From Candidatus Electrothrix scaldis (lineage in GTDB: Bacteria > Desulfobacterota > Desulfobulbia > Desulfobulbales > Desulfobulbaceae), in NCBI GenBank assembly GCA_033584155.1, contig CP138355.1:4615501-4679500 (forward strand): DNA of 64,000 nucleotides, written 5' to 3'. Below the pieces are notes generated by a model. It was not told the origin of the DNA and did not search any database. It saw nothing but the letters and a program-made list of their open reading frames with translations. The first letter of the stretch is position 1. Each line of letters begins with the position of its first letter. Of this stretch, positions 10,486 to 31,903 are shown in pieces. The translations under genes were made by a program, and so were the position numbers.

Positions 10486-11913
10486 TCACTCCTCCGGCTT
10501 TTCGTCCTTTTTCTCCTGCGATCCCCAGGCACTGATAATGTTAATAATCTTTTCTTTCTCCTGCACTGAAAGGTAATTAGGATCACCTGTACTCTCAACC
10601 ATACTATTGACGATATCCGCCCACTCCTCCTTATTCCTTGTAACCCGCTGGATTCTCTCCAGATCATGACAGACATTGCACTTATTATCAAGCAGGGGGT
10701 CAATGTTCTCTATATCAACAGGATGCTGTACACCATTCCTTCCTGTGTTCTCCAACTTGCGGGTACTGAGAAAATGAGCGATATCAGCCTTCTCCTGTTG
10801 GGAAAGAAAATTTGGGTCACCTGTTATCTCTACCATACTGTTCACAGTTTCAAGCCATTCCTTCTCTTCTTTATGAACACGTAATACCCTGTCCAAGGCA
10901 TGACAACCGGCACTGCATTTCACCTCAATAAGCTTTTTAATTGCATTCGGCTCTTCCTGAGAGTCAGCAATCGTGCCGCTTTGCCCTTCTTTTCCATCCT
11001 TCTCCTCTACTTCCTGTTCTGCTTCCTGCTCTTGAGAATCGCCCTTCCTTATATTCGTCAAAAAATAAACAATATCATCAGCTTCCAAGTCCGTGAGATA
11101 ATCAGCATCCCCATTAGTTCTGGTCATCCTGCTGACCGTCTCACGCCACTCCTGACGACTCTTCTTGGCTCCGAAGATTCTGTCCAAATTATGACAGATA
11201 CTGCATTTCTGACTGACCAAGCTCCGCCCGATTTCCATACGAAGCTTATCTTTTTCTTCTCCCTGTCGCTTCTGCTGCTGTTGCACCAAATAACCGACAA
11301 TCTGCTTCACATCAAAATTGGTAATATTAGGATAATCCAGCTCCGCCATTTTATGAATGGTCTGAGTCCAGGCGATATCAGACTTATAGCTCTGATATAC
11401 TCGCTCAAGACTATGGCATTTACTGCATTTTCTGTTGGTAATTTTCTGCCCGATCTCCACGTTTAGAATATCGTCATCCACATCAGAGAGAATCGCATAC
11501 TTATAATCCGCACGATGAAGCGCATAATAACCAGCTGTTATACCGGTCAGGCCAAAAGACAGACCGAAGATTGCCAGCCCCAGCATAATCAGCTTGGTAC
11601 TAAGCTGGGCATGCCGTCTGGCAATCACGATTTTTATCATAATTAAGGGAACAAGGAGCAAGGCAAGAACGATATGGATCATAGCCCGAGCCGGGAGCTC
11701 CTCCTGAAAACCACCTGCCTTGATCACCATAAAGACCAGCATTGAGGCAAAAAGAGCAAGAAACAGATACCCAAGGATGCGGTGAAGAAGAATCCAGCCC
11801 TTTCTCCTGGGACTATCCCGGACTTTTCCGGTCATTTCCAGCATAATAAGGACGGTTACTCCGCCGATAACAACCAATAAGGTCGCTAACATGGATGAAA
11901 AATGGGGATGCAT
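10486..11913 (-). CDS. membrane-anchored tetraheme cytochrome c with an unusual CX3CH site
   Basis: 475 residues. The N-terminal 135 residues form about four transmembrane helices with His residues (H2, H4, H44, H80), resembling a small cytochrome-b-like or quinone-facing anchor. The soluble part has four repeated heme domains: CSKCH at 163-167, CSICH at 237-241, CSAGCH at 333-338 and CNVCH at 412-416. Each is followed by an LERV/LDRV-like segment, a conserved Trp about 18 residues on, and a short helix. The third site has three residues between the cysteines rather than two. A low-complexity Gln/Glu linker (about 285-325) separates domains 2 and 3. It probably carries electrons between the membrane and periplasmic partners. 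It is a paralogue of the gene at 12098-13291, encoded just upstream. Confidence 0.85.
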   Translation of the reverse strand: MHPHFSSMLATLLVVIGGVTVLIMLEMTGKVRDSPRRKGWILLHRILGYLFLALFASMLVFMVIKAGGFQEELPARAMIHIVLALLLVPLIMIKIVIARRHAQLSTKLIMLGLAIFGLSFGLTGITAGYYALHRADYKYAILSDVDDDILNVEIGQKITNRKCSKCHSLERVYQSYKSDIAWTQTIHKMAELDYPNITNFDVKQIVGYLVQQQQKRQGEEKDKLRMEIGRSLVSQKCSICHNLDRIFGAKKSRQEWRETVSRMTRTNGDADYLTDLEADDIVYFLTNIRKGDSQEQEAEQEVEEKDGKEGQSGTIADSQEEPNAIKKLIEVKCSAGCHALDRVLRVHKEEKEWLETVNSMVEITGDPNFLSQQEKADIAHFLSTRKLENTGRNGVQHPVDIENIDPLLDNKCNVCHDLERIQRVTRNKEEWADIVNSMVESTGDPNYLSVQEKEKIINIISAWGSQEKKDEKPEE

Positions 11914-12096
11914 AACACCTACCTTGTTCTTTCCTTTTCGATCAACCCGAGTGATTTGCCAGCAAGGCTGAAGCAGAGACTCCCTGTCCAGGGAAAGCCC
12001 GTATAATCCGGCACAAATTGCATTCTATTTTGTTTCCCCTGAGTTTCCTGAGGAATTGACACTCTCATTGCTCTGCCCCTGAAAAAGCGTCTCCAC

Positions 12097-12116
12097 ATTA
12101 TGGCATATTATGGCAT
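12097..12116. repeat. 10-bp tandem duplication that breaks the cytochrome gene
   Basis: ATTATGGCAT occurs twice in a row (12097-12106 and 12107-12116) just after the fourth heme motif. Removing one copy restores the frame, continuing CHNVETLFQGQSNES to a stop at 12025. Confidence 0.85.
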
Positions 12117-13291
12117 GCTTTACATTTATTAGAAACAAGTGCATGCATAGCTTCCGGTGAATCCAAGCCTGCTTCGGCTTCCTGCGATGACGAATGTTTT
12201 TGCTGCAACAGCCATTCAACAATCATTTTTTCTTCGCTCTCAGAGAGGAAATCTGGATCACCGGACATGGCTTCCATACTCTCTACCGTCTCCATCCACT
12301 GCTGCGAAGTCTTTTGCACCCGTAATACCCTATCTAAGGCATGACATCCAGCGCTGCATTTACGGGCAACAAGGGCACGGGCGATTTTTTCTTCACCGGA
12401 AATGCTTGTTGCTTTCATTGTACTGCTCTGCCGAGTACTGAGGAAGATGATAATATCGTTTTTTTCCTGCAAGGAAAGAAAGTTTGAAACGCCGAGAAAC
12501 CCAACCATGGTGTCGATCGTCTTTGTCCATTCCTGAGTAGTCTTCTTTGCCCTGAAGACTCTCTCCAAATCATGGCATATAACGCATTTTCTGGCGATCA
12601 GGTTCTTACCATTTTTACGATGATCTCTCTTCTTTCCCCGTTGCTGCTGATTGACAATCAGGTAGGAGGTGATCTGTTCAACATCGCCCTGACTGATATT
12701 AGGATAATCAAGGTCTGCCATCCTTTGAACAGTTTCCCGCCAATCGTTTTCATTTTTATCAGCTAAAAAAACCCTCTCCAGCGAATGGCATTTACTGCAT
12801 TTTTTGGCCATCACCCCCTGCCCTGTGGTCACACGCAAAGGATTCCATAGCAGCTGTTGCAACCCGGCAACCGAGCGAGCTCCTGATGAATTAAACAGAT
12901 AATATCCTATTGTAACGCCGATCAGGGTGAAAATAAAAGCAAATAGTATTCTCCCTATAAAAAGCAACCAAAAGCCTTTTTGGACCTGTAGCTTGATAAG
13001 CAACAGTTTAATAAGGATAAAAGTCACTACCAGCAAGGCCAGGACTATATGCACAGGCTCCCAGCCAGCCATCATCCCCTGATAATTAAATCCCCCGTCC
13101 TTATTAAGCACGAAGACCACCACCAGAGCAAAAAGAAAGAAAAAAAGGTATGCAAGGACCCGAGGGATTTTCTTTTTTCTCTCCTGTTGCCCCTTTTCTC
13201 GCTGGCCGGTCATTTCAATCATCACCAGAAGAGTGGCCCCGGCAATAATCAGGAGTAAGGCCACCAACATAGATGAGACCTGGGAAAGCAT
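12098..13291 (-). CDS. paralogous membrane-anchored tetraheme cytochrome c, C-terminus truncated by frameshift
   Basis: 397 residues in the present frame. The N-terminus has four membrane helices like its neighbour at 10486-11913. Heme motifs are CSKCH (165-169), CVICH (236-240), CSAGCH (312-317, again CX3CH) and CKACH (390-394), after which the protein stops at once (NMP). A 10-bp tandem duplication causes this; with a single copy the protein would be 418 residues and end GNSGETK at 12025. Even then the last heme domain would lack the Trp-containing helix present in the paralogue, so the tail was already shorter. Same strand and upstream of its paralogue, so this is a tandem gene duplication. 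Expected role: periplasmic electron transfer. The four heme motifs survive, so the product may still work. Confidence 0.8.
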   Translation of the reverse strand: MLSQVSSMLVALLLIIAGATLLVMIEMTGQREKGQQERKKKIPRVLAYLFFFLFALVVVFVLNKDGGFNYQGMMAGWEPVHIVLALLVVTFILIKLLLIKLQVQKGFWLLFIGRILFAFIFTLIGVTIGYYLFNSSGARSVAGLQQLLWNPLRVTTGQGVMAKKCSKCHSLERVFLADKNENDWRETVQRMADLDYPNISQGDVEQITSYLIVNQQQRGKKRDHRKNGKNLIARKCVICHDLERVFRAKKTTQEWTKTIDTMVGFLGVSNFLSLQEKNDIIIFLSTRQSSTMKATSISGEEKIARALVARKCSAGCHALDRVLRVQKTSQQWMETVESMEAMSGDPDFLSESEEKMIVEWLLQQKHSSSQEAEAGLDSPEAMHALVSNKCKACHNMP

Positions 13292-13398: not shown

Positions 13399-14733
13399 TC
13401 AGGCCATTTCCACACCGGCAATGCATGCCAGATCTGGATGCAAGGCAGCCAAATCGCTTCGATCAAGGGCATGGACTGAATCCTTACCGCAGCTTCGGGC
13501 TATATCCTGTACCTCTTCTGTTGCTGCCTTGATAAACCGAGCAATACGCTGTGCGCCCTGCTCCACATCAAGCTGCTTACGCAATTTTTTATCCTGGGTA
13601 GCAATACCATGCGGACAATTACCAAGATGGCACTGCCGCAGATAGGTACACCCGAGAGCAATCTTCAAGGCTCCGCCCATGTAGACTCCTTCAGCTCCCA
13701 GAGCAAGAGCCTTTGCCACATCTCCGGCATGGCGGATTCCTCCAGCTGCGATCAGGGTCACCCGGTGCGAGAGCTCTTCCCTCCGCAGGAAATCAGCGAC
13801 TTTAGGCAGGGCATAAACCAAAGGAAGCCCCACATGATCTTTCATGATAACCGAGGCAGAACCAGTTCCCCCTTCCCCCCCATCAATAACCAGGACATCA
13901 GGGATATACTGCTGGCTAAAGATAGCCTTGAGGTCTTCCTCGACATGACCTCCAGCTATTTTCAAGGCAATGGGTTTCCCCTGAGTGAGCTCCCGCAATT
14001 CAAGGATCTTTTCTGACAGTTCGCCTGCCCCCCGTATGTCCACATGTACCGCAGGCGAGCTGGCTGCCTCTCCAATGGGGATTCTCCGGGTGGCCGCTAT
14101 ATCCACACTGACATTTGCTGCTGGCAAGAGGGCACCTGTGCCAGGATGCGCACCCTGGGCAAGTTTTATCTCCACCATATCCGCCAGCAGTAAACGCTCC
14201 CGTTTCACCCCGAAACGGCCAGGGGCATATTGCAGGGTGATATACTCAGCAAGCTCCCGTTCCTCATCCAGCATCCCACCCTCTCCGGTATTGGCTATGG
14301 TTCCGGCGTGGGACGAGGCCAGGGCCAGAGCCATCTTAGCTTCTCGGCTCAGGGCTCCGTAAGACATCGCGGCATTGAGGATCGGTGTTTTGAGAATAAC
14401 AGGCTGCTGGGCAATTTTCCCAAGAACCACTTCTGTGCTCACCGGAATATTCTCTGCAAGAGGTAAGCGGGCAATCATGGCAGGCCGAAAAAGCAGATTA
14501 TCCATATTCTGAAAAACCCGCGAGCTCCCCTTCCCTTCCCGACACGACTCCCCGGTTTCAGCCATCTCCTTAATCATTCGCACGGTCCTGATATCCCAGT
14601 TTCCCGGTTTATCCCGATCAAGGGTCGTATAATCCATAAAGAGATCAGCTGTGGCATTACAGCGCGGACAAAAATAAAAATCAAGGCCTCCTGAATGCAG
14701 ATAACCACAGACCGAGCAGCGATAGGTCTTCAT
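13399..14733 (-). CDS. FMN-binding glutamate-synthase-like protein with rubredoxin-type N-terminus
   Basis: About 444 residues from the chosen ATG, which has GGGAGG 9 nt upstream. Residues 1-30 form a rubredoxin-like zinc or iron site (CSVCG and CPRC). The rest is the TIM-barrel FMN domain of ferredoxin-dependent glutamate synthase: GGEGGTG, an AAGGIRHAGDVAKALALGA phosphate-binding stretch, and CTYLRQCHLGNCPHG, the Cys pattern that holds a 3Fe-4S cluster. It has no amidotransferase domain, so ammonia or another partner must supply nitrogen, or the substrate may differ altogether. It follows the [2Fe-2S]/ASKHA gene after 66 bp on the same strand, which suggests a two-gene operon; the functional link is inferred. 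Confidence 0.85.
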   Translation of the reverse strand: MKTYRCSVCGYLHSGGLDFYFCPRCNATADLFMDYTTLDRDKPGNWDIRTVRMIKEMAETGESCREGKGSSRVFQNMDNLLFRPAMIARLPLAENIPVSTEVVLGKIAQQPVILKTPILNAAMSYGALSREAKMALALASSHAGTIANTGEGGMLDEERELAEYITLQYAPGRFGVKRERLLLADMVEIKLAQGAHPGTGALLPAANVSVDIAATRRIPIGEAASSPAVHVDIRGAGELSEKILELRELTQGKPIALKIAGGHVEEDLKAIFSQQYIPDVLVIDGGEGGTGSASVIMKDHVGLPLVYALPKVADFLRREELSHRVTLIAAGGIRHAGDVAKALALGAEGVYMGGALKIALGCTYLRQCHLGNCPHGIATQDKKLRKQLDVEQGAQRIARFIKAATEEVQDIARSCGKDSVHALDRSDLAALHPDLACIAGVEMA

Positions 14734-14799
14734 CAGCAACATCCTCCCAAGCCGCTCAGGGCGAAGCATATCAACGGCAAAAGCATAGTTCTTCCTTTC

Positions 14800-16785
14800 T
14801 CACCTCTCTTTTTTTCTCTTCCGTGCTGCTGCACCGGGAAACAAGGTCAAATCCGTATGGGGCAAGAACATAGAAGCCATGTATTGGTCCTTAAAACCAG
14901 GAACTTCGGAGAGCTCAAAACTGGTCATCTTGCGCACCACCTCGACCACATCCCGGCGAATATGATTGGAAAGCTCACACATCCAACTTCCTGTCAGCGA
15001 ACCATTGCCCAGGTAGAGAATCTTCTCCGGGTCCACTTCCGGCAGCAAGCCGACACTCATGGCACTATCAAGGTCAATATAGGAACCAAAGCCGCCTGCA
15101 AGAATAATTCGTTCCAAGTCACTGACCTGCAAGCCAACCTGCTCAAGAACCGTCGTAATCCCGGCAAAAATAGCGCCCTTGGCCCGGATAAAATTCTCTA
15201 TATCCACCTCGTTGATCACGATATCATGATCCGCAGCGCATTCATTCTCCCAGGCCAGCACATACTCTCGCCCGCTTCGTCCTTCCCGAATACGGGGATG
15301 CGCCAACGGATTGAATTTTCCGCTCTGATTCAGCACACCATGCTCAAACAGAGTGGCCACGATGATAAGCAGACCCGAGCCGCAGATGCCTATGGGAGCC
15401 TTGCCCCCTTCAGTGACATTCATCGGTTCCAGGGTTTCGGGATGGAGACTGAAATCACTGATCGCCCCTTCCACGGCCCTGATTCCGTGGGTAATACCAC
15501 CGCCTTCAAAGGCTGGGCCAGCAGAACAGGCAGCACAGGCTAACCAGTCCCGGTTACCGATCACTATTTCCGCATTAGTGCCTACATCAATGAATAAGGT
15601 CAGGAGTTTTGAGCTGTACATACCTGAGGCCATAACCCCAGCCACGATGTCTCCGCCCACATAGCTGGAAATAGTAGGATAAACCAAAGAAGCACAGGTT
15701 TCAGAAAGCTGCAGACCTATCTCACGAGCGCGAAACGAAGGGAAAAAAGTTGTGGTCGGCACATAGGGAGAACGACGGATACTACTCGGATCCATATGCA
15801 GGAGCAGATGGGTCATGGTGGTATTACCCGCAATGGAAACAGAATTGATCTCATCCCGTGCCACAGGAGCTTCACCGATTCGCTCCGAGGGAATGGCCTT
15901 TTCCAGCATCTCGGCAATGAGCTGATTCATGGCATCTATCACCAGCTTTTGCATCAGCTCCAGACCATCGGGCTTTTCTGCACAGATAATCCTGGATATT
16001 ACATCCTCTCCATAGCTCATCTGCGGATTATAACAGGAGGCCTCGGCAAGGAATTTCCCGGTCTCCAGGTCAATCAGCACTCCGTAAACCGTTGTGGTCC
16101 CGATATCAAAGGCCAGCCCAAAATTCCGGTGACATTGATAGCCCGGCTGGATGTCCAAAAATCGATACCGGGCAGTCGACTTAGCCGGAATAACCGGAAC
16201 CTCAAGGGTGGCGGTGGCCCGAAAATTTTCCTGCCGCAGGGCCTTGCTCATTTTCTGCAAGAGGGTCAGGCTCTTGATCTCACATTTCCTTCCATATTGT
16301 GCAGACAGGGCCTGCAACAGACGCCCGGCATCAGCTCGGTTATCCTGCTCTGTTGGCGACAGGAGCTCTATGCAGACCTTTTCCACCGAGGGCGCCCAAC
16401 CACCTCCCTGCTTGAGCTCATCCATGTCAAAGACATGCCTGCGGGCATAGTTCCGCTGGGGAATCTCCGTGCCCAACCCACCTTTCTCCCGACTACTGGA
16501 CTCAGGAACACGCACCGTGACATCTTCACAGACTTGAGCACTACAGGCCTGCCGATATCCCTGGGCAAATGACTCAGCCGATATTTTTTCACTTTTCCCG
16601 CCAAGAATAGAACCTTCCTCGATAATAACCTGGCATTTACCGCAGACTCCTGCACCGCCGCAGGAGGCATTTACGTGTAAACCGACCTTTCGTGCAGCAT
16701 GCAGCAACTCGGTTCCTGCTGGCACTTTGCTTGTTCTGCCACTTGGTAGAAAGGTAACTGTATACTCCTGCTGCTCGCCGTTCAT
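14800..16785 (-). CDS. [2Fe-2S] ferredoxin-ASKHA protein, corrinoid activation (RACo/DUF4445-like)
   Basis: About 661 residues. Residues about 1-95 form a plant-type [2Fe-2S] domain (CGGAGVCGKC and a later CSAQV). A linker follows, then the large ASKHA ATPase region with FDIGTTTVYGVLIDLETG and IDVGTNAEIVIGN phosphate-binding motifs and a late ILAGGFGSYID. Characterised relatives (RACo) use ATP to reduce Co(II) corrinoid proteins back to Co(I) in methyl-transfer pathways. No corrinoid protein or methyltransferase is encoded nearby, so the partner is unknown. I chose the ATG at 16785 (GGAG 8 nt upstream) because the ferredoxin fold begins right after it; a TTG at 16899 would only add a non-conserved tail. 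Confidence 0.85.
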   Translation of the reverse strand: MNGEQQEYTVTFLPSGRTSKVPAGTELLHAARKVGLHVNASCGGAGVCGKCQVIIEEGSILGGKSEKISAESFAQGYRQACSAQVCEDVTVRVPESSSREKGGLGTEIPQRNYARRHVFDMDELKQGGGWAPSVEKVCIELLSPTEQDNRADAGRLLQALSAQYGRKCEIKSLTLLQKMSKALRQENFRATATLEVPVIPAKSTARYRFLDIQPGYQCHRNFGLAFDIGTTTVYGVLIDLETGKFLAEASCYNPQMSYGEDVISRIICAEKPDGLELMQKLVIDAMNQLIAEMLEKAIPSERIGEAPVARDEINSVSIAGNTTMTHLLLHMDPSSIRRSPYVPTTTFFPSFRAREIGLQLSETCASLVYPTISSYVGGDIVAGVMASGMYSSKLLTLFIDVGTNAEIVIGNRDWLACAACSAGPAFEGGGITHGIRAVEGAISDFSLHPETLEPMNVTEGGKAPIGICGSGLLIIVATLFEHGVLNQSGKFNPLAHPRIREGRSGREYVLAWENECAADHDIVINEVDIENFIRAKGAIFAGITTVLEQVGLQVSDLERIILAGGFGSYIDLDSAMSVGLLPEVDPEKILYLGNGSLTGSWMCELSNHIRRDVVEVVRKMTSFELSEVPGFKDQYMASMFLPHTDLTLFPGAAARKRKKER

Positions 16786-16871
16786 CACTTCGTCTCCGCT
16801 GCCTACACCCTGTTCTTTAAGAAAAAATTCAACATCAATCAAGACATGATGCGTAATAATTATACATCTTT

Positions 16872-16888
16872 CTTTGGAAATTCCAAAG
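16872..16888. promoter_or_regulatory. perfect 17-bp inverted repeat, candidate operator
   Basis: CTTTGGAA and TTCCAAAG flank a single A, upstream of the ASKHA gene and about 270 bp from the divergent tetR gene. Size and symmetry suit a dimeric repressor. Confidence 0.4.
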
Positions 16889-16900
16889 GATGTTATCAAA

Positions 16901-17796: not shown

Positions 17797-18954
17797 ATGA
17801 CCTCACCCCAACCAAAGACCCTGCGAGGAAAAATCGTCTGGTTCATCCTGAAAAGCCTGCCGGGTATCTTCTTCGTCATGATTCTGCTCGTCGCAGCTCT
17901 CCTGCTCCAGCAACGGGTTAACGAACAAAAGGAGGCCCGGAAAGAGGAACTGAAAAACTCTACCGCTATGGAAGCGCCACCAACGAACGTTATTACCTTG
18001 GAGCTTCGACCAACGGTTCTACGAGATAAAATAACCCTGCCCGGCATGATTGAACCTTGGGCTGAGCTGGACCTGATGTCGAAAATCGGTGGCACCATTG
18101 AAGATATCGAGGTGAAGGAAGGAGATCATGTACACAAAGGGCAGCTGATTGCCCGAGCTGAAAGCAATGATTACCGCATCGCCTTAGACTCGGCCAAAGC
18201 CGCCTATGCCCTGGCCAAGGCCGATTACTCGCGCAATAAGACCTTGCGCAGCAAGGGGATATCCACCCAAGCCAATCTGGATGAGCAGCAATCAACCCTG
18301 ATTCAGGCTAAGGCCGCAGTGGAAAATGCCGAATTGGCCCTGTCCCGTTGCCGAATTACGGCCCCTATTGCAGGGCTTATCAGCAAGCTGAATGCGGAAA
18401 TAGGAATGGTCGTCAACCAGATGATGCCCGAACCTGTTGCGAAAATCATCCAAATCGACAGGGTTAAGGCAGTGGTTGCAGTTCCTGAGGCGGATGTCAG
18501 CGCTGTACGCCAACTCAAACAGGTGGGCGTGCAGATTCGTTCATTAAATAATGTTCGTTTTCAGGCCAAGGTCCATTTCCTGGCTCCGGCACCGGAAACC
18601 CTGGCCCATGCCTACCGCCTGGAACTCGCCCTGGATAACCCGGAAGAACAGATCCTTCCTGGCATGTTCCTCCAGGCGGATATCGTCAAGCAAACCGAAG
18701 AACAGATTATAGCAGTGCCTCTGTACACGGTTATCTCCCGCAACGACGACGAGCAATTTGTTTATGTTGTGGAAGACGGCGTTGCCCGCAAGCGGCCAGT
18801 AGAAACCGGCTTTACCGAAGGGTGGCAGATTCTGATCCGTAGCGGCCTTGAGCAGGGCGAAAAAGTCATTATTCAGGGACACCGGACCGTGGAAGATGGA
18901 CAGAAGGTTCGGGTCGTCAAAGAACTCACTGATCTCAGCGGGTTCATGCCCTGA
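17797..18954 (+). CDS. RND efflux periplasmic adaptor (membrane fusion protein)
   Basis: 385 residues. One N-terminal membrane anchor (about 22-43) is followed by the barrel-sandwich (lipoyl-like) half-motifs GTIEDIEVKEGDHVHKGQL (near 105) and CRITAPIAGLISKLNAEIG (near 190), a helical hairpin between them (about 130-175) and a beta-barrel domain (about 220-300). Such proteins connect the inner-membrane RND pump to a TolC-like channel. The partner pump gene starts only at 25265; about 6.3 kb of accessory DNA now separates the two. No outer-membrane channel gene is in the window. Confidence 0.92.
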   Translation: MTSPQPKTLRGKIVWFILKSLPGIFFVMILLVAALLLQQRVNEQKEARKEELKNSTAMEAPPTNVITLELRPTVLRDKITLPGMIEPWAELDLMSKIGGTIEDIEVKEGDHVHKGQLIARAESNDYRIALDSAKAAYALAKADYSRNKTLRSKGISTQANLDEQQSTLIQAKAAVENAELALSRCRITAPIAGLISKLNAEIGMVVNQMMPEPVAKIIQIDRVKAVVAVPEADVSAVRQLKQVGVQIRSLNNVRFQAKVHFLAPAPETLAHAYRLELALDNPEEQILPGMFLQADIVKQTEEQIIAVPLYTVISRNDDEQFVYVVEDGVARKRPVETGFTEGWQILIRSGLEQGEKVIIQGHRTVEDGQKVRVVKELTDLSGFMP

Positions 18955-21063: not shown

Positions 21064-21238
21064 TCACCAGATAATATCCACGGGGTATCGTTGCACAGCA
21101 GAATCGCAACTGAGAAGAACGGCCTTTTCAACGTTAGCCTGTGCAATGAGAAGTCGATCAAACGGGTCTCGATGATGGAAAGACAGGTCGCCCAAGGCAA
21201 AGATGTGAGGAGGGATTACCGGAAGAATCTCAATACCA
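21064..21238 (-). pseudogene. C-terminal half of a VapC (PIN) toxin cut off by IS insertion
   Basis: The minus-strand frame IEILPVIPPHIFALGDL continues through HHRDPFDRLLIAQA, the late acidic motif of PIN-domain RNases, and ends RYPVDIIW at 21064. Its missing N-terminus is at 24583-24794 on the same strand. Joining 24794-24583 to 21238-21064 (with one copy of the TACCA duplication) gives 387 bases, a 128-residue PIN protein in frame. Confidence 0.85.
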
Positions 21239-22912
21239 CCTAAATCCTGCAATTGATCTTTTTGGCTCAAATGACTAACCATTTGGTGTTGTAGAAAACC
21301 AAAAATTCTGAAAATAGTTATCAGTTGATAGTAAAAAACACCGAAAAGTGCTGTTTCCAGATAAGCAGATGCCTCTTTAAGGCTGATCAAGTAGAATATT
21401 TTGCCCCACAAGACGCACTAATCCTGTTGATGGAAAAAAATATTTCAAAAAAAGAGGTAGTAGTGCTGGTCAGTACAGCCCCACCGCCACCCAGTCATCC
21501 CACTGAGTGGAATACAGCATTCGTTCGGGAACAAATAGCTTTTGCTGCCGTCCACCAGTAGTATACTTCCCAGCCACCCGAACGAGAAATGTACGAATTG
21601 TACCTGGCTCCCAGCGACGTAATACAGCATTACCGCTCAATAAAGCCATCCATCGTATCGTGTTGTATGCCAGAATAGCAGTTTGAAACAACACACTATT
21701 TGCCCAGAAATCTTCTGTCTTGATATGTACCAACGCAGTCTGGTTTTTTGCTTCCTCAATCCAGGTTTCACAAGTTGCTCGTTGGCCGTATCGTTTGTGG
21801 ACCTGCCATGGATCAGCAATCTCACTGACCACATAACAGAAGTAATCGAACTCCTTCATCTCAAACAGGGTCGCTGGTTTTGCCGGGTCAGCCGGTTTCT
21901 CTCTGCGGACCGCAACAAAGAGTCGGGTCGAAGACCAGGTCGTACATTTATGAAAAAAGATACATTGTTCCCAACCGGCCTGCCCGGGGACCGGCTCCCA
22001 GGATTGTTTGGACAGAAGGGTGACCAGCCCCTTGAGCTTAACCTTGATCAGGTAACTATGACCATACTGATCCAAAAGATCAAGCAGGGCACCAACAAAA
22101 AAACCGCTGTCGCCCCTGAACAAAATCCGGGTTCCATTGGGAAGGTGTGCCAGAAGTTGCTTGGTAAACTCGACAATACCATTACTTGTATAGGCATTGC
22201 CGCATCGAAGCCACCCTTGCAATATCTCTTTGCTTTCAGCGCAAAATGCAAGCAGAGGATGATACGATTTTGCACCGCGTTTATGTGGATTAAACCCTTT
22301 GGCCGCTCCTTGCTGAGAACCGTATACCGTCTTTTCTGTGGAATCCACATCAACAACCAGACAGTGGGCTGCACCGACTTTACTTTTCCCGGATCGCAAT
22401 CCCTTACGCCACATGCGAGCACGCAACCGATGATTAAGAACTTCCAGGTTATTGATATGACGATAGCTGAATGTTCGAAAAAGGCGGCCAAAGGTTGTTT
22501 CGTCCGGGATTAACCGCCATCCTGCTATCCGGCAAAGTACGCTATCTGCCCAGACTGTTGCAATATTGCTGATAGAACGAGCTCCGCCGATAATAGCTAT
22601 CAAAGGGAGAAATATTATATCAACTGCATCATAAGTGGCGGTGGCTCCGCGTTGATGTTCTAAAGTTTCCTGGACAAGCTGGCCAACATTATGTTTTTGC
22701 AGGAACTTTACGGCAGGAATCAAGCCTGCCTGTGCTGTAACCCCTTTTGCTCCTTTATTAATTTGTATTTTTTTGGGCGAGACTCGGGCAGATCGTTTAT
22801 TCTGTTTAGACTTCATAAAAATAGTGACCCTCTTCTGTAGTAATTTTACCTTTAACATATTGAGGATTATACTATTTTTACGATACCCTTTCAACTAATT
22901 GCAGGATTTAGG
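21239..22912 (-). mobile_element. IS1380-family insertion sequence, copy 1
   Basis: 1674 bp bounded by inverted ends CCTAAATCCTGCAATT / AATTGCAGGATTTAGG. The 5-bp target duplication TACCA is at 21234-21238 on the left; the matching copy is not at the right end but at 24578-24582, because another element inserted there. The same 1674-bp element is present in opposite orientation at 29995-31668, with at least two amino-acid differences in the transposase. Confidence 0.95.
21470..22816 (-). CDS. IS1380-family transposase (copy 1)
   Basis: 448 residues from the ATG at 22816. DDE-type transposase: LVVDVDSTEKTVYG carries the first Asp, ILFRGDSGFF the second and CETWIEEAKN the Glu. The N-terminus is basic (MKSKQNKRSARV), fitting terminal-repeat binding. 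A TTG further upstream could extend it, but that codon lies in the -35 box of the element's own promoter. It differs from copy 2 at least at QLVQE (QLIQE) and FQTAIL (FQAAIL). It appears intact. Confidence 0.93.
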   Translation of the reverse strand: MKSKQNKRSARVSPKKIQINKGAKGVTAQAGLIPAVKFLQKHNVGQLVQETLEHQRGATATYDAVDIIFLPLIAIIGGARSISNIATVWADSVLCRIAGWRLIPDETTFGRLFRTFSYRHINNLEVLNHRLRARMWRKGLRSGKSKVGAAHCLVVDVDSTEKTVYGSQQGAAKGFNPHKRGAKSYHPLLAFCAESKEILQGWLRCGNAYTSNGIVEFTKQLLAHLPNGTRILFRGDSGFFVGALLDLLDQYGHSYLIKVKLKGLVTLLSKQSWEPVPGQAGWEQCIFFHKCTTWSSTRLFVAVRREKPADPAKPATLFEMKEFDYFCYVVSEIADPWQVHKRYGQRATCETWIEEAKNQTALVHIKTEDFWANSVLFQTAILAYNTIRWMALLSGNAVLRRWEPGTIRTFLVRVAGKYTTGGRQQKLFVPERMLYSTQWDDWVAVGLY

Positions 22913-23013
22913 TAGATTGTCCTCAAAAATCCTCAATGCGCTGATTTAAAATGAAATTTAAATAAAAATATTGTAAAATATGCATGTTTTTGACGTTCAC
23001 CCCCTCATAAGGC

Positions 23014-25264: not shown

Positions 25265-28200
25265 ATGATCATCTCCGACCTTGCCGTCAAAAAAAGCATC
25301 TCTGTCCTGGTTCTGGCCGCCCTTATCCTGGTCATGGGTACCTACAGCTACCTCACCCTGCCCCGCGAGGCTGAGCCGGACATCAGCATCCCCCATATCT
25401 TTGTCTCCACCGCCTATCGCGGCGTGGCACCGGGTGATATCGAGAACTCCATCACCATTGAGATAGAAAATAAGCTCAAAAGCCTGGATGGGGTAAAAAA
25501 CGTCAAATCAATTAGCTCAGAAGGCCAATCGCTGATCGATGTAGAATTCATCACCGGCATAGATATCGACGATGCCCTGCGCAAGGTCAAGGATAAGGTA
25601 GATGAGGCCAAAGGGGAACTCCCCACAGACCTGGAAGATGATCCCTATGTCTTTGAGGTCAATATCTCCGAGATGCCGATCCTGATCTTCTCCCTGGCCG
25701 GGACCTGCGGAGAACGCTGCCTGAAAGAAATAGCCGACGATCTGGAGGACGAGATCGAAGGCGTGCCCGGAGTACTGGAAGTGGAGATTACCGGCGCCCG
25801 GGAACGAGAAATCCGGGTTGAATACTTCCCGGAAAAGCTGGCCTATTACGGACTGAGCATCCCAGAGGTCCAGGCAGCAGTTCAGGGAGAAAACAGCAAC
25901 ACCTCGGGCGGTGCCCTTCATATGGGAGACGGCAAGTTTCAGGTCCGTGTACCCGGCGAATTCAAGACCCCGGAAGAACTCTACGGTCTTGTCATCGGAA
26001 CCCACGGCGGGCAGCCTGTCTACGCCCGGGATGTTGCGCGGGTGCTGGACACCTTTAAGGAAGAGACCAGTCGTTCCCGGCTTAATGGACTCCCTGCCAT
26101 CAATATCGTGGTCAAAAAACGTTCCGGTGAAAACATCATCGCCATTGCCGATGCCGTCGATGCCATCCTCCAACAAAGTCAACCTATCTGGCCTAAAGGA
26201 ACCACAATTACCAAGGTATTAGATAAGGCCAAGGACACAAAAGCCAATGTTGCTGATCTGGAAAATAATATTCTCAGTGGCTTGGTCCTGGTTGTGGTGG
26301 TTATCTTCTTTGCTATGGGCATCCGCAATGCCCTGCTGGTCAGCATGGCTATCCCCTTTTCCATGCTGCTCTCCTTCACGGTGCTTCAGTTTTTGGGGAT
26401 CACCCTGAATATGATCGTCCTGTTCAGCCTGACCCTGGCCCTGGGTATGCTGGTGGATAATGCTATCGTCATCATTGAAAACATCTACCGCTTCATGGAA
26501 CAGGGCGTGGGCCGGGTTGAAGCGGCTATGAAGGGAACCTCGGAGGTGGCGATGCCGGTGATTGGGTCCACCCTGACCACCTTGGCCGTGTTCTCGCCCA
26601 TGCTTTTCTGGCCCGGCATCATGGGTGAATTTATGGGATACCTGCCCCTGACCCTGATCGTCACTCTGTCCTCCAGCCTCTTCGTGGCCCTGGTGATCAA
26701 TCCGGCCCTGGCCTCCCTGTTCATGAAGAGCGCCAAACAGGGGCGCTCGGTCTCTTCCGCCGAGGTGGAAGCGGCCGGAGAACAGCCCGTGACCATCCAG
26801 GGGCCGCTCCTGCGCCCCTATGCCGGGCTGCTCAGATTCAGCCTGGCCCATCCCTTTGCCCTGATTGCGGCGGCGGTCTTTCTCCTGGTCTTCATGATCC
26901 AGGGCTGGCTTTTGGTGGTGGGCATTAAAAAGCCTGTGGAATTTTTCCCGGATATTCACCCCAAGGGCATCTATGTTAATACGGACATGCCGGAGGGCGC
27001 AGATCTGAACTATATTGACGGTATCCTCCGCCAGATTGAGGAGGCCGTGGCCGGGAAAGGAGGCAATAGCAACACGTCAGATTCAGGTAAGGACACAAAA
27101 TCCTCCGGTCCCAGCGACCTGCCGTATGTCAAAATCATCTACAGCAAGGCCGTCACCGCCACCGGCGGCGGATCTGCATTCGAACCCAATACCCCTAACC
27201 ATGTGGGGATCCGCTTTATTGATCTGGAAGACCGCACTCCCCCCCGTACCACCTATGATACGGTGGACGATATCCGTAAACGGATCAAGGATATTGCCGG
27301 AGCCAGGGTCACCGTGGCAATGGAGGCGGAAGGCCCGCCCACGGGTGATGCAATTAATATTGAAATCAGCGGCGACAACTTTGATGTACTCAGCAGCATT
27401 ACCAAAGAAATTCGTGCTGCCCTGGAAAAAATTCCCCATGTGGTCGATATTCGCGATAACTTTGTGGAAGGAACTCCCTCGGTACGAATCAAGATTGATC
27501 GCCAGAAGGCAGCCCTGTTCGGCCTCAACACCCTTGCTATCGCTTCGGCCATCAAGACCTCCTATAACGGTCTGGTCATTTCCTCCTTTCGGGAGGGCAA
27601 TGAGGACTACGACATTACGGCGCAGCTGCCGGAAAAGGACCGCCGGGTCGATAATGTCCTGCGTGAGTTTATGATCCCGACACCGTCCGGGGTTATCGTA
27701 CCACTGTCCACCTTGGCAACAATAGACTACACCGGTTCCCTGGGCAATATCAACCGGATCAATAACCAACGGACCATTACGATCAAGGCCAATGTGGATG
27801 AAACAAAGATCACCGGCCCGGTGGTCCGGGAACAGGCGGAGAAGCTATTGGCGCAAATGCATTTGCCCCCAGGCTACACTGTCCGCTTTACCGGAGAAAA
27901 CCAGGAACAGGAGGAATCCCAGGGATTCCTCAGCAAGGCCTTTGTCATTGCTCTTTTTTTCATTTTCCTGATTTTGGTCACCCAGTTCAACTCAGTGAGC
28001 CAGCCCTTTATCATTATGAGCTCAGTGATACTATCAATGGGTGGAGCCTTTTTCGGCCTAATGCTCTATCGCCAACCCTTTGGCGTCATCATGACCGGTA
28101 TCGGGGTCATCTCACTGGCCGGGGTCGTGGTCAATAACGCCATCGTCCTGATTGATTACACCAATAAGCTGCGCGAGAACGGCTTTGCCCTGCTGGATGC

Positions 28201-28531
28201 TGTGGTCTCTGCTGGTGCCACCCGCCTGCGCCCGGTTCTCCTCACCGCCGTGACCACGGTCCTGGGCCTGATCCCTATGGTCACCGGAGTCTCCTACGAC
28301 TTCCGCAACCTGCGCATCTCCTGGGTCAGTGAGTCCAGCCAGTGGTGGCAGTCTATGGCTGTGGTGGTTATCTTCGGCCTGCTGGTCGCCACTTTCCTGA
28401 CCCTGGTGGTGGTGCCGGTGCTGTATTTCCTGATTGAGCGGAGTAAGGAGATGTTTACGGCAGGGCGAGAGCAGTATGAAGAAAAAAGAATGAACGCCTA
28501 TTTGCTGCTTGCACGGGAAAAAAATCAATAA
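25265..28531 (+). CDS. RND-family efflux pump inner-membrane permease (AcrB-type)
   Basis: 1088 residues, normal family length. N-terminal helix (about 10-30), two large periplasmic loops (about 40-335 and 575-870) and two blocks of transmembrane helices (about 340-560 and 870-1060), including LGMLVDNAIVIIENIYRFME and SLAGVVVNNAIVLIDYTNKL, the usual RND repeat pair. Proton-driven export from the periplasm or inner membrane is expected; the substrate cannot be told. AAGGA precedes the ATG. Its natural partners, the TetR regulator and adaptor, end at 18954, so the operon was split by accessory DNA and the pump now needs its own promoter or long read-through. Confidence 0.95.
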   Translation: MIISDLAVKKSISVLVLAALILVMGTYSYLTLPREAEPDISIPHIFVSTAYRGVAPGDIENSITIEIENKLKSLDGVKNVKSISSEGQSLIDVEFITGIDIDDALRKVKDKVDEAKGELPTDLEDDPYVFEVNISEMPILIFSLAGTCGERCLKEIADDLEDEIEGVPGVLEVEITGAREREIRVEYFPEKLAYYGLSIPEVQAAVQGENSNTSGGALHMGDGKFQVRVPGEFKTPEELYGLVIGTHGGQPVYARDVARVLDTFKEETSRSRLNGLPAINIVVKKRSGENIIAIADAVDAILQQSQPIWPKGTTITKVLDKAKDTKANVADLENNILSGLVLVVVVIFFAMGIRNALLVSMAIPFSMLLSFTVLQFLGITLNMIVLFSLTLALGMLVDNAIVIIENIYRFMEQGVGRVEAAMKGTSEVAMPVIGSTLTTLAVFSPMLFWPGIMGEFMGYLPLTLIVTLSSSLFVALVINPALASLFMKSAKQGRSVSSAEVEAAGEQPVTIQGPLLRPYAGLLRFSLAHPFALIAAAVFLLVFMIQGWLLVVGIKKPVEFFPDIHPKGIYVNTDMPEGADLNYIDGILRQIEEAVAGKGGNSNTSDSGKDTKSSGPSDLPYVKIIYSKAVTATGGGSAFEPNTPNHVGIRFIDLEDRTPPRTTYDTVDDIRKRIKDIAGARVTVAMEAEGPPTGDAINIEISGDNFDVLSSITKEIRAALEKIPHVVDIRDNFVEGTPSVRIKIDRQKAALFGLNTLAIASAIKTSYNGLVISSFREGNEDYDITAQLPEKDRRVDNVLREFMIPTPSGVIVPLSTLATIDYTGSLGNINRINNQRTITIKANVDETKITGPVVREQAEKLLAQMHLPPGYTVRFTGENQEQEESQGFLSKAFVIALFFIFLILVTQFNSVSQPFIIMSSVILSMGGAFFGLMLYRQPFGVIMTGIGVISLAGVVVNNAIVLIDYTNKLRENGFALLDAVVSAGATRLRPVLLTAVTTVLGLIPMVTGVSYDFRNLRISWVSESSQWWQSMAVVVIFGLLVATFLTLVVVPVLYFLIERSKEMFTAGREQYEEKRMNAYLLLAREKNQ

Positions 28532-28712: not shown

Positions 28713-29994
28713 CTATTGATTAAGCAGCAGGTAAAGAATCGGCACAATTGATCCCTCTCCGCCAGAAGATGGCACTGTGTTCAACCACTGCCCTAAATTA
28801 CCTGCTGAATAGGCCGCAGAAAATTTACTATAAACAGAAAATCCCTCAGCATCACACCCCCCGTTTCCTCCTTTCAATACACCGACCAGCTCATCGCTGT
28901 TATGAAAAATTCCGGAACCGCTGCTGCCACCCTGCGTTCCCCCGTCTGTCCAGTCCACTGCCAGGAAGCTGCCGGTATCCGAGGGGGTACAGCTAAAATC
29001 AGCACCGTCCATATAGCACTTATACTCTCCCTCGTTATTGCCGAAAGAAATTTTTTTCCAGTCACCCTGCGGGTGATGAACCCCTGTCAATTCACCGGGA
29101 TCAATATTGATATTCCAGCCTGCATAATAAACTCCGGCCGGGGGACTGTCATGAAGCTCCAATAATGATGCATCCTGATTGCTGTCAAGATCACTTGTCG
29201 TTGTACCTCCTGTCCAGAGCAACGTCGCGCCACCAGTTCTTGTTGCATAATCAGCGTTACGAGTTGTCCCGTTACAGGTTGAAGACTCAAAAAACCACAA
29301 GGTCTGCAAAGTGGAGGCAACTGTTTGATTTGCAATACAGTGATTGGCAGAAATAAAATACGGCTTCCATGTCGTGAGGTCCGCATCATTCAACAAGGTT
29401 CCCGTGCATATATACGTGGAACCCGAATCAGTAAAAACCATTTTTGCAACAGCCTTTCTCATGTTGAGCCAGGATGGATAACATGTCGCGTCGTTCTGGC
29501 AGGCATTACTGTCTCCATAGTCCTGATTGATGAATTGATGTTCACTTGAACTGAAGGGAGAAACAGCAAGATGCGAGAGCGCGGAAAAAGTGATTTGAAC
29601 ATCATCCGTTTCACCCCCCGGAGGTACATATATCTCAACCCCTAAAGATTCTCCTTCGATAACAGGTGACCAGTATACGTCAGAGTACTCGTTGTCAGGT
29701 TTCGATTTCATATTACGCTGTATCAACGTGTTTATTCCCTCTCCTGTCACCACAAATTCCGCTCTATCGCCGACGATATTTCCCTGAAAAAACCTCAATT
29801 CAGCCTGTGACGGCAGATTATCTGCGGATATTCCGATCCGCAATGCCGCCGCACCGGATGATGTAAAGATGAAGGTTGAGGTATGACCTCCCTCGGGATG
29901 CGTATTCCACTGAAGACCCTTCTGTTCTTGAAGTACAGCTATCTTTCTTGGCACACCTATAATTTTTCTTGGAGATTCAACGGACAACATAGCA
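28713..29994 (-). pseudogene. main part of a secreted trypsin-like serine protease, split by IS1380 copy 2
   Basis: The frame encodes the protease domain: ISANHCI (His), DASLLELHD (Asp) and GGTQGGSSGSGIF (Ser) make a full S1-type triad, in a sequence resembling secreted lysyl-endopeptidase-like proteases. A pro-region with PPC- or prodomain-like segments precedes it. The present frame only opens inside the IS end. The true N-terminus with the signal peptide is at 31674-31903. Joining 31903-31674 to 29994-28713 gives 1512 bases, exactly 504 codons, a 503-residue secreted protease. Confidence 0.88.
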
Positions 29995-30012
29995 CCTAAA
30001 TCCTGCAATTAG

Positions 30013-30041
30013 TTGAAAGGGTATCGTAAAAATAGTATAAT
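30013..30041 (+). promoter_or_regulatory. internal promoter of the IS1380 transposase
   Basis: TTGAAA (30013-30018), 17-bp spacer, TATAAT (30036-30041), 50 bp upstream of the transposase ATG. The same promoter is mirrored in copy 1 (22894-22866). Confidence 0.8.
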
Positions 30042-30090
30042 CCTCAATATGTTAAAGGTAAAATTACTACAGAAGAGGGTCACTATTTTT

Positions 30091-31437
30091 ATGAAGTCTA
30101 AACAGAATAAACGATCTGCCCGAGTCTCGCCCAAAAAAATACAAATTAATAAAGGAGCAAAAGGGGTTACAGCACAGGCAGGCTTGATTCCTGCCGTAAA
30201 GTTCCTGCAAAAACATAATGTTGGCCAGCTTATCCAGGAAACTTTAGAACATCAACGCGGAGCCACCGCCACTTATGATGCAGTTGATATAATATTTCTC
30301 CCTTTGATAGCTATTATCGGCGGAGCTCGTTCTATCAGCAATATTGCAACAGTCTGGGCAGATAGCGTACTTTGCCGGATAGCAGGATGGCGGTTAATCC
30401 CGGACGAAACAACCTTTGGCCGCCTTTTTCGAACATTCAGCTATCGTCATATCAATAACCTGGAAGTTCTTAATCATCGGTTGCGTGCTCGCATGTGGCG
30501 TAAGGGATTGCGATCCGGGAAAAGTAAAGTCGGTGCAGCCCACTGTCTGGTTGTTGATGTGGATTCCACAGAAAAGACGGTATACGGTTCTCAGCAAGGA
30601 GCGGCCAAAGGGTTTAATCCACATAAACGCGGTGCAAAATCGTATCATCCTCTGCTTGCATTTTGCGCTGAAAGCAAAGAGATATTGCAAGGGTGGCTTC
30701 GATGCGGCAATGCCTATACAAGTAATGGTATTGTCGAGTTTACCAAGCAACTTCTGGCACACCTTCCCAATGGAACCCGGATTTTGTTCAGGGGCGACAG
30801 CGGTTTTTTTGTTGGTGCCCTGCTTGATCTTTTGGATCAGTATGGTCATAGTTACCTGATCAAGGTTAAGCTCAAGGGGCTGGTCACCCTTCTGTCCAAA
30901 CAATCCTGGGAGCCGGTCCCCGGGCAGGCCGGTTGGGAACAATGTATCTTTTTTCATAAATGTACGACCTGGTCTTCGACCCGACTCTTTGTTGCGGTCC
31001 GCAGAGAGAAACCGGCTGACCCGGCAAAACCAGCGACCCTGTTTGAGATGAAGGAGTTCGATTACTTCTGTTATGTGGTCAGTGAGATTGCTGATCCATG
31101 GCAGGTCCACAAACGATACGGCCAACGAGCAACTTGTGAAACCTGGATTGAGGAAGCAAAAAACCAGACTGCGTTGGTACATATCAAGACAGAAGATTTC
31201 TGGGCAAATAGTGTGTTGTTTCAAGCTGCTATTCTGGCATACAACACGATACGATGGATGGCTTTATTGAGCGGTAATGCTGTATTACGTCGCTGGGAGC
31301 CAGGTACAATTCGTACATTTCTCGTTCGGGTGGCTGGGAAGTATACTACTGGTGGACGGCAGCAAAAGCTATTTGTTCCCGAACGAATGCTGTATTCCAC
31401 TCAGTGGGATGACTGGGTGGCGGTGGGGCTGTACTGA
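30091..31437 (+). CDS. IS1380-family transposase (copy 2)
   Basis: 448 residues from the ATG at 30091, complete, with the DDE motifs DVDSTEKTVYG, FRGDSGFF and CETWIEEAKN. It differs from copy 1 by at least two residues. A strong sigma-70-like promoter precedes it, so this copy is probably active. Confidence 0.95.
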   Translation: MKSKQNKRSARVSPKKIQINKGAKGVTAQAGLIPAVKFLQKHNVGQLIQETLEHQRGATATYDAVDIIFLPLIAIIGGARSISNIATVWADSVLCRIAGWRLIPDETTFGRLFRTFSYRHINNLEVLNHRLRARMWRKGLRSGKSKVGAAHCLVVDVDSTEKTVYGSQQGAAKGFNPHKRGAKSYHPLLAFCAESKEILQGWLRCGNAYTSNGIVEFTKQLLAHLPNGTRILFRGDSGFFVGALLDLLDQYGHSYLIKVKLKGLVTLLSKQSWEPVPGQAGWEQCIFFHKCTTWSSTRLFVAVRREKPADPAKPATLFEMKEFDYFCYVVSEIADPWQVHKRYGQRATCETWIEEAKNQTALVHIKTEDFWANSVLFQAAILAYNTIRWMALLSGNAVLRRWEPGTIRTFLVRVAGKYTTGGRQQKLFVPERMLYSTQWDDWVAVGLY

Positions 31438-31668
31438 CCAGCACTACTACCTCTTTTTTTGAAATATTTTTTTCCATCAACAGGATTAGTGCGTCTTGTG
31501 GGGCAAAATATTCTACTTGATCAGCCTTAAAGAGGCATCTGCTTATCTGGAAACAGCACTTTTCGGTGTTTTTTACTATCAACTGATAACTATTTTCAGA
31601 ATTTTTGGTTTTCTACAACACCAAATGGTTAGTCATTTGAGCCAAAAAGATCAATTGCAGGATTTAGG

Positions 31669-31903
31669 TAGCATGCAATGTTTCTGTCTCAAGGCGGTCC
31701 AACGCAATCTTTCGGGCCTGTGCAGCAGCATTCATCAATTTAAGATCTTTCCGCCCCTTATGGCTCTCATTTATTTTCTCCAATTGCATGCCCGGATAAA
31801 TCGCACCGGAAATGCGGGCATAATCCGCTGCGCCCCCTTGGCAAACAAAGAAAAAAACGGAGGAAACAACGAGTAAAACCATAATCCCGACACGATCCTT
31901 CAT
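31669..31903 (-). pseudogene. N-terminal fragment (signal peptide) of the split serine protease
   Basis: The frame from the ATG at 31903 (AAGGAGAAGAAG upstream) starts MKDRVGIMVLLVVSSVFFFV, a signal peptide, continues with DYARISGAIYPGMQLEKI and reaches DRLETETLHA at the IS target site. The next residues of the original protein, MLSVESPRKIIGV, are found beyond the element at 29994 and below. Confidence 0.88.

Follow-up and report, generated by a model that had tools for sequence, protein, structure and literature searches.

Cable bacteria are microbes that act as living electric wires, and the genus Candidatus Electrothrix is among them. Passages of the literature on how electrons leave the inner membrane for the conductive fibres of these bacteria offer proposals and speculation, including a tetraheme cytochrome, called pACIII or TMH1-DsrOhPh-tetrahaem, that is proposed to move electrons from quinones to the periplasm (PMC11976967, PMC13047784); a published screen lists 11 soluble c-type cytochromes, found by the motif CXXCH (PMC11976967). 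Here we describe a cytochrome gene with four heme sites, gene A, and its adjoining paralogue, gene B, in a 64,000-nucleotide stretch of the Candidatus Electrothrix scaldis genome (GenBank assembly GCA_033584155.1, contig CP138355.1, positions 4,615,501 to 4,679,500; this whole stretch is the window, and coordinates are positions in it unless another record is named). The family to which both genes belong is new, as are its confinement, among the genomes searched, to two genera of cable bacteria in its four-site form, its stepwise origin and its flexible series of heme motifs. The titles, abstracts and passages of the cable-bacterium literature searched, outside which lay Kjeldsen et al. 2019 and all supplements, hold no description of the four-site cytochrome. 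Being anchored in the membrane, A falls outside a list of soluble cytochromes, and its third site goes uncounted by CXXCH.

Features of this cytochrome have analogues in other organisms. PgcA of Geobacter sulfurreducens is described as having three small domains of one heme each, connected by flexible linkers and in two cases with His/Met ligation, and as working by tethered diffusion (PMC11520253). In the account of green sulfur bacteria, PscC (cytochrome cz) and the membrane-anchored cytochrome c-556 place a mobile heme domain after Rieske/cytochrome b (PMC11108878). Homologues of ImcH are reported to combine one CX3CH site with N-terminal helices and a link to extracellular electron transfer (PMC6295460), while for MmcA of Methanosarcina a heme mass shift of 615.17 is reported on the peptide bearing CXXXCH (PMC11024163).

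Structure of the cytochrome genes

The preliminary description of this locus, made from the sequence alone, reported membrane-anchored heme repeats encoded in tandem. Both open reading frames (ORFs) are borne out on the minus strand, where gene B comes first and gene A follows, and hydropathy supports the four-helix anchor. Gene A (10486-11913, 475 aa), supported by its reading frame, Pfam and full-length matches, joins a four-transmembrane anchor to four class-I-like heme domains of about 60-70 residues each. The N-terminal anchor (residues 1-132, 11518-11913) has four helices by hydropathy, placed at residues 3-29, 35-67, 75-99 and 105-132 in an AlphaFold2 model, and its loop charges, among which those of the first loop (six K/R) weigh most, predict that both N- and C-terminus lie outside; with the C-terminus out, all residues past helix 4 would face the periplasm. 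The heme sites follow in the order CSKCH (11413-11427), CSICH (11191-11205), CSAGCH (10900-10917) and CNVCH (10666-10680), each recognised by motif. Domain 3, which holds the expanded third site, spans residues 326-386 (10756-10938) as judged by conservation. It is preceded by a charged and highly variable linker (residues 291-323, 10945-11043), defined by identity and model confidence, and followed by a second linker, defined by identity (residues 387-404, 10702-10755).

Gene B (12098-13291, 397 aa) likewise encodes four transmembrane helices, followed by three full heme domains with the motifs CSKCH (12785-12799), CVICH (12572-12586) and CSAGCH (12341-12358), and by a residual fourth CxxCH, CKACH (12110-12124), with no heme fold in the sequence beyond it. 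In this genome (G000) and the related G005 the frame stops directly after CKACH at a perfect 10-bp tandem duplication (12097-12116) at the 3' end of the gene, and the longer copy in G006 has a tail past the fourth CxxCH that lacks the W/M half of the domain. Because the fourth site comes without the rest of the fold, B has three complete heme domains, and its sequence would make it at most a three-domain protein. The claim of two tetraheme cytochromes would therefore hold for A, which has four heme domains by motif, and is doubtful for B, where it is a count of motifs only.

Aligning eight domains (A 1-4, B 1-3 and that of a soluble monoheme gene found in this genome) shows K-C, C, H, R, W, M and I to be invariant, and the extra residue of CX3CH to be located between the two Cys while the remaining positions stay in register. 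Every complete domain of A and B has a Met 22 residues after the heme His. Distal Met ligation is most likely, given this invariant Met and the His/Met ligation of two of the three PgcA domains, and the motifs and their conservation lead us to infer that A would hold four hemes.

Compared with the systems above, A has the look of a tethered chain of the PgcA type, anchored here in the inner membrane, possibly with a role like that of PscC or cytochrome c-556. It shares with PgcA separate monoheme domains on linkers, rather than a packed heme wire; the linkers are variable (4-36% identity in the two measured), and domain 2 aligns with PgcA domain II (VIA-align on 8qjg, Z 6.1, root-mean-square deviation (rmsd) 2.8, 60 residues, under the Z 8 confidence level). 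PgcA, by contrast, is described as an extracellular protein with three CXXCH sites, its linkers being of the (PT)x type, and the two are likened by layout and fold, not by direct sequence comparison. Membrane anchorage and a heme domain are common to A and PscC/cytochrome cz, and domain 1 aligns with 3a9f (chain B, Z 6.7, rmsd 3.0, 68 residues, again under Z 8); however, PscC is described as having three helices and feeding the reaction centre (PMC11108878), whereas A has four helices and lies under the PF10643 cut-off. ImcH, as reported, resembles A in its N-terminal helices and in one CX3CH accompanied by several CX2CH, but has three helices, six CX2CH in the Geobacter homologues and its CX3CH beside the membrane (PMC6295460). 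MmcA shares the CXXXCH site and is described as an archaeal heptaheme protein with no identifiable transmembrane domain and another context. Like A, pACIII is a cable-bacterium tetraheme cytochrome, proposed to move electrons from quinones to the periplasm; it is described as periplasmic, with four His-His hemes and encoded beside DsrO/DsrP-like genes, whereas A has its own four-helix anchor, a conserved Met and a different neighbourhood.

Profile comparisons place the heme domains with class-I-type cytochrome c, over the Pfam cut-offs: A scores 35.9 bits with PF13442 (cut-off 27) and 22.4 with PF00034 (21.3), and B 36.9 with PF13442. Both also exceed the cut-off of PF09098, Dehyd-heme_bind (A 56.9 and B 47.7 bits against 25.2), which all 18 family members match at E <= 0.1. 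PF09098 is, with NF052246 (7.7e-20) and TIGR03908 (2.6e-18), the best-scoring named model for the heme domain of A. The latter two describe SorB and the quinohemoprotein amine dehydrogenase alpha subunit, which are subunits of soluble enzymes; they provide the heme-domain models closest to A, but A lies under both NCBIfam equivalog cut-offs, with 65.8 bits against a whole-protein 274.35 for TIGR03908 and, over two matched stretches, 70.7 bits whole-protein against 93 for NF052246. Other candidates also fell short. With PF10643 (PscC/cytochrome cz) A scores 23.5 bits against 27.1 and matches only profile positions 149-190 of 216, the heme part, while 15 of the 18 members match at E <= 0.1 (best 2e-9). 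With cytochrome c1 (PF02167) it reaches 9.7 bits against 22.8, family members matching in 7 of 18 cases at that threshold (best 3.6e-7), and with NapC/NirT (PF03264; ImcH/CymA) 14.5 bits against 24.1, over profile positions 35-58 only.

The nearest solved sequence for domain 2 is the quinohemoprotein chain 1jju (E 0.0033). In the AlphaFold2 model, built from 18 sequences, the heme domains are helical, domains 1 and 2 being the best, and residues 291-320 in the linker between domains 2 and 3 have a predicted local distance difference test (pLDDT) score under 40. Fold comparison of the anchor gave only generic helical bundles, and the DUF6529 and DUF7937 profiles match it weakly, under cut-off for A. 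The top row of the VIA-align comparison, 2blf (SorB), was set aside for its rmsd of 9.1.

Distribution and origin

The four-site cytochrome is confined to cable bacteria in the genomes searched. Within the family, of which 73 genomes were covered, it was matched in 8/8 Electrothrix genomes (g1) and 5/5 of the genus Electronema (g10), the latter including Ca. Electronema aureum and Electronema sp. KV, recognised by their shared sets of heme motifs, with the other three counted as cable bacteria by genus placement. The family profile then matched 31 of 257 genomes of the order at E <= 1e-15, with architectures assigned by profile coordinates. A full-length match (profile 1-430) was found in all eight Electrothrix and all five Electronema-genus genomes and in 0/244 others; the anchor with two domains was found in 11 of those 244 (G010, G028, G035, G129, where it is split, G132, G136, G137, G166, G200, G222 and G228). 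The remaining matches are six with heme domains only and G042, an anchorless protein with six CX2CH that was matched across. In a sample of the phylum, 9 of 394 other genomes match, none at full length; among those examined as proteins (L096-L100 excluded), L092, L093 and L095 have the anchor with one heme and L094 the anchor with two. The diheme proteins examined carry CX2CH sites only. Named homologues of A, at 77-83% identity, come from three Ca. Electrothrix species (marina, aarhusensis and gigas) and from a Desulfobulbaceae metagenome-assembled genome (MAG).

A tree of the anchor with domains 1 and 2 (24 rows, root unknown) places A, B and the Electronema sequences on one side of a 100/100 branch, and the diheme forms with a third paralogue on the other. 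In a tree of single domains (59 rows, 72 columns, motif residues masked), domains 3 and 4 of A and Electronema group with domain 3 of B at 90/94, and domain 4 forms a clade inside this group (97/96). The timing of the A/B duplication is less clear: B groups with Electronema at 89/82, yet a tree with all A sequences together is not rejected (p-AU 0.17). From these sequences the simplest, and most likely, history would be a single addition of domains 3 and 4 to a two-heme ancestor on the stem of the cable bacteria, with CX3CH in domain 3.

The third paralogue lies in the same genome (C1:3834805-3835713) and has two hemes and a four-helix anchor; it was matched in 7/8 Electrothrix genomes, and the gene that comes next and overlaps it encodes a soluble monoheme protein built on the same heme domain (L078 7448-7861 and 7785-8717). 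A member with anchor and two hemes, 31% identical and on a long branch, occurs in a MAG of the anammox bacterium Scalindua (L047 10001-10873).

The expanded heme site

As first observed, CX3CH is present in both paralogues, site 3 reading CSAGCH in A and in B. The bare pattern is not significantly enriched in the DNA of the window (7 matches against 4.2 expected), and so the case for the site rests on conservation. Among the A-type copies, CX3CH occupies site 3 in 12 of 13 genomes (CSAGCH in 11, CNAGCH in one), and the thirteenth, G016, has CX5CH (CGSSAGCH). The proposed check on the second Cys in homologues bore out the site, since both Cys are kept in 13/13 copies. The spacing, which was taken to be conserved through duplication, holds at site 3 in those 12 of 13, but not throughout, given the single CX5CH and a second CX3CH, CTTMCH at site 2, in two Electronema-genus copies (G026 and G088). 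Site 3 is also CSAGCH in three B copies and one broken B. Codon differences at the site are mostly synonymous, the exceptions at the amino-acid level being one S-to-N change and one two-residue insertion. CGSSAGCH was found in two records, L037 and G016 (L056), which are possibly one genome; the motif set of L037 is that of G016.

In domain 3, the K, C, C, H and W and the aligned Met are invariant in 12/12 rows, and the Arg nearly so; with Cys, Cys, His and a candidate distal Met all conserved, the domain is a candidate CX3CH c-type cytochrome. Mean identities (seven Electrothrix A, three Electronema and two B sequences) point the same way over longer distances. Between genera, domains 1-4 are 51, 43, 58 and 49% identical and the anchor 59%, and between A and B the four domains are 52, 45, 61 and 19% identical, so that domain 3 is the best-kept heme domain in both comparisons (58% and 61%). 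The linker between domains 2 and 3, in contrast, is 16% identical within Electrothrix and 6% between genera, and that between domains 3 and 4 is 36% and 11% identical. This conservation of domain 3 argues against a broken site, short of proving a bound heme. The CX3CH spacing, which the preliminary description set beside the known variant sites CX4CH and CX15CH, is itself already known, being reported in MmcA (PMC11024163) and in ImcH homologues (PMC6295460). What the family adds is a natural series of CX2CH, CX3CH and CX5CH in one fold, which bears on how stretched a motif a System II heme lyase tolerates.

Genomic context

Directly upstream of the two cytochrome genes lies a gene, 13399-14769 on the minus strand, for a rubredoxin-like protein with a glutamate-synthase-like part of the flavin mononucleotide (FMN) type (PF01645, PF21349). 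It adjoins the cytochrome gene or genes on the same strand in 8/8 Electrothrix genomes, with 26 to about 660 bases between matches, and stands 13-33 bases from the diheme gene in all seven carriers tested of the 11 known. No match to it was found at E <= 1e-30 in the five Electronema-genus genomes, which are 69-95% complete. In G005, G007 and the diheme carrier G166 the gene is split between frames, where sequencing error is possible. The rubredoxin/FMN protein is thus a likely ancestral operon partner of the family, and it appears to be gone from one cable genus that has retained the four-site cytochrome. Cytochrome P460, DUF4079 and an extracytoplasmic function (ECF) sigma factor lie near some diheme loci.

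A possible operon in non-cable bacteria (L042 8179-11513, L046 201-4062) comprises P460 (in L046), DUF4079, the rubredoxin/FMN gene, the anchored diheme gene and the ECF sigma factor. Three Electronema-genus loci instead have a four-CxxCH protein directly upstream of the cytochrome (L045 8320-9933, L048 8103-9785, L037 8334-9884), of which the one copy scanned, that in L045, has a UshA-like score.

Genes for quinol oxidation and heme attachment were sought elsewhere in the genome. There is one cytochrome b, with an adjoining ORF in which Rieske-type motifs were read by eye, and cytochrome c1 has no match in the genome; Rieske/cytochrome b without cytochrome c1 agrees with passages of published accounts of cable bacteria (PMC13047784, PMC12093952). 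Co-occurrence with cytochrome b was considered as support for a link to complex III and dropped, as the 19 of 20 chosen genomes that carry it are matched by 195 of 257 in the order. ResB (System II) was found at one place in the genome and CcmE had no match in it, CcsA lying outside this search, so that the heme of domain 3 would be attached by the general System II.

Proposed role and alternatives

Building on the anatomy, conservation, distribution and trees observed here, we propose that A is an inner-membrane-anchored, periplasm-facing tethered heme chain that carries electrons from the membrane to the periplasm. Taken whole, with the origin included, we give this explanation an even chance of being right. 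Four helices would hold A in the membrane, and from them would hang four small, separate heme domains (three in B), in each of which His would be the proximal and, most likely, Met the distal ligand; variable linkers connect the domains of the outer half, and the working mode would most likely be tethered diffusion. An inner domain would receive its electrons, at the surface of the membrane, from a module that oxidises quinol, for which the Rieske/cytochrome b pair, with no cytochrome c1 found here, or the proposed pACIII complex are candidates, and the outer domains would pass them to periplasmic cytochromes or conductive fibres, presumably the natural receivers in cable bacteria. In domain 3 the heme would be attached at CX3CH, with the general System II lyase doing the loading. 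A two-heme ancestor in an operon with the rubredoxin/FMN protein would most likely have given rise to the four-site form a single time, on the stem of the cable bacteria, and the retention of this form without that old partner in 5/5 Electronema-genus genomes counts in favour of the proposal. Heme occupancy and ligation, donor and acceptor, and the direction of flow are the inferred parts of it.

A is short-listed for transfer from the inner membrane to the fibres because the four-site form is confined to cable genera (13/13 genomes, 0/244 others) and enlarged where cable bacteria part from their relatives. The preliminary suggestion of a link between the quinone pool and long-range transfer has become more plausible with a cable bacterium as host; it would be an indirect link, quinone oxidation by A itself being unsupported. 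In its boldest form, the proposal would make A the missing link from membrane to fibre: a cable-specific tethered chain of four His/Met hemes that replaces cytochrome c1, is fed by a truncated Rieske/cytochrome b and swings electrons to the fibres, with a CX3CH domain 3 that is specialised, perhaps tuned or used in docking, and acquired with the wire lifestyle. We regard this extended version as speculative and rather doubtful.

Several observations weigh against the tethered-chain proposal. Cytochrome b, present in 195 of the 257 genomes of the order, says nothing specific for the family by its presence, and in the alignment of members the anchor has neither a strictly conserved His pair nor a recognised quinone site. 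Other cytochromes and pACIII have already been proposed for the same role in the published passages (PMC11976967, PMC13047784). The place of oldest conserved neighbour belongs to the rubredoxin/FMN protein rather than to any gene of complex III, so that the ancestral form may have had another donor. On the side of the trees, the 90/94 grouping lies under the strong level of the tree program, domains 3 do not form one supported clade, and the domain tree is built on few columns, with branches that are long and a bootstrap that had not settled. Within genera domain 3 is not the best-kept heme domain: it is domain 1 in Electrothrix A (95, 80, 83 and 86% for domains 1-4) and domain 4 in Electronema (51, 47, 58 and 62%). 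The structural model has low overall confidence (pLDDT 65.9, predicted template modelling score (pTM) 0.32), a Foldseek search with the whole A model gave no match at E <= 0.001, Z values under 8 may reflect a mere common arrangement, and the fold comparison barely covered domains 3 and 4.

A different account of the same genes is that A and B keep an ancestral job, serving the rubredoxin/FMN protein by passing electrons between a cytoplasmic flavoprotein and the periplasm, with no special role at the fibres; stress protection, for example, is a possible though unlikely purpose. The constant company of the FMN gene, on the same strand beside the cytochrome in 8/8 Electrothrix genomes and 13-33 bases off in 7/7 diheme carriers tested, fits this account, as does the addition of cytochrome P460, DUF4079 and an ECF sigma factor at some diheme loci. 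However, the five Electronema-genus genomes have the four-site cytochrome but no match to the FMN gene, this gene is divided over separate frames in G005 and G007 of Electrothrix (with the caveat of sequencing error and of a similar split in the diheme carrier G166), and the four-site extension coincides with the cable-bacterium genera, so that we think continued service to the flavoprotein unlikely, while keeping it in view. We find it improbable that A oxidises quinol itself, in the manner of CymA, ImcH or CbcL, with a quinone site in its helices and electrons passing directly to domain 1. ImcH is akin to NapC/NirT, and the NapC/NirT model is not reached by A (14.5 bits against 24.1); nor is there a strictly conserved pair of heme-b ligands, several members lacking the His ahead of helix 2 and several that ahead of helix 3. 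The logic would be that of ImcH, which as described has helices at its N-terminus and, besides several CX2CH, one atypical CX3CH (PMC6295460), and 2 of 18 members give a weak match to PF01292 (cytochrome b561); but the CX3CH of ImcH adjoins the membrane, whereas that of A is site 3.

The tethered-chain proposal also assumes that each domain carries a heme, and domain 3 might not do so in the normal way: its CX3CH could be a relic or attach heme by one Cys, leaving A effectively triheme with a structural third domain. Spacing is evidently not strict among members (G016 has CX5CH at site 3, and G026 and G088 have CX3CH at site 2), domain 3 is not the best conserved inside either genus, and heme binding at site 3 is supported by analogy alone. 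Against this stand the residues of domain 3 that are invariant in 12/12 rows (K, C, C, H, W and the aligned Met, with Arg nearly so), its rank as best-conserved heme domain in the comparisons of the genera and of A with B, and the CSAGCH of 11 of 13 A-type genes, with synonymous codon changes and one S-to-N and one two-residue insertion as exceptions; in MmcA, moreover, the mass shift places a heme at CXXXCH (PMC11024163). A heme-less or abnormal domain 3 thus seems to us a poor prospect. For gene B the balance is different, and whether it is a decaying duplicate without a separate function is in our judgement evenly poised. It was matched in just 4/8 Electrothrix genomes (G000, G005, G006 and G007), is broken into separate frames in G007, and has an incomplete fourth domain in the three other copies, with the stop at the 10-bp duplication in G000 and G005. 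But domains 1-3, including CSAGCH, are intact in these three copies, domain 3 is 61% identical to that of A, and four of the eight Electrothrix genomes are drafts, so that absence of B there is uncertain.

Other features of the window

Just upstream of the FMN gene, at 14800-16899, lies a gene for a ferredoxin-ASKHA corrinoid activation protein (RACo/AcsV-like), which scores 610 of 800 bits, under the AcsV cut-off; in L036 such a gene is missing from that place. Farther along the window, a perfect inverted repeat of 1681 nt (21233-22913 and 29994-31674) carries two copies of a DDE transposase (PF13701). Between the repeat copies is a gene for a resistance-nodulation-division (RND) pump (25265-28528), and a HlyD-type partner gene lies at 17797-18951. 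In the relative L036 two genes with the same beginnings as this RND/HlyD-type pair are adjacent, and insertions may therefore have separated the two genes in the window.

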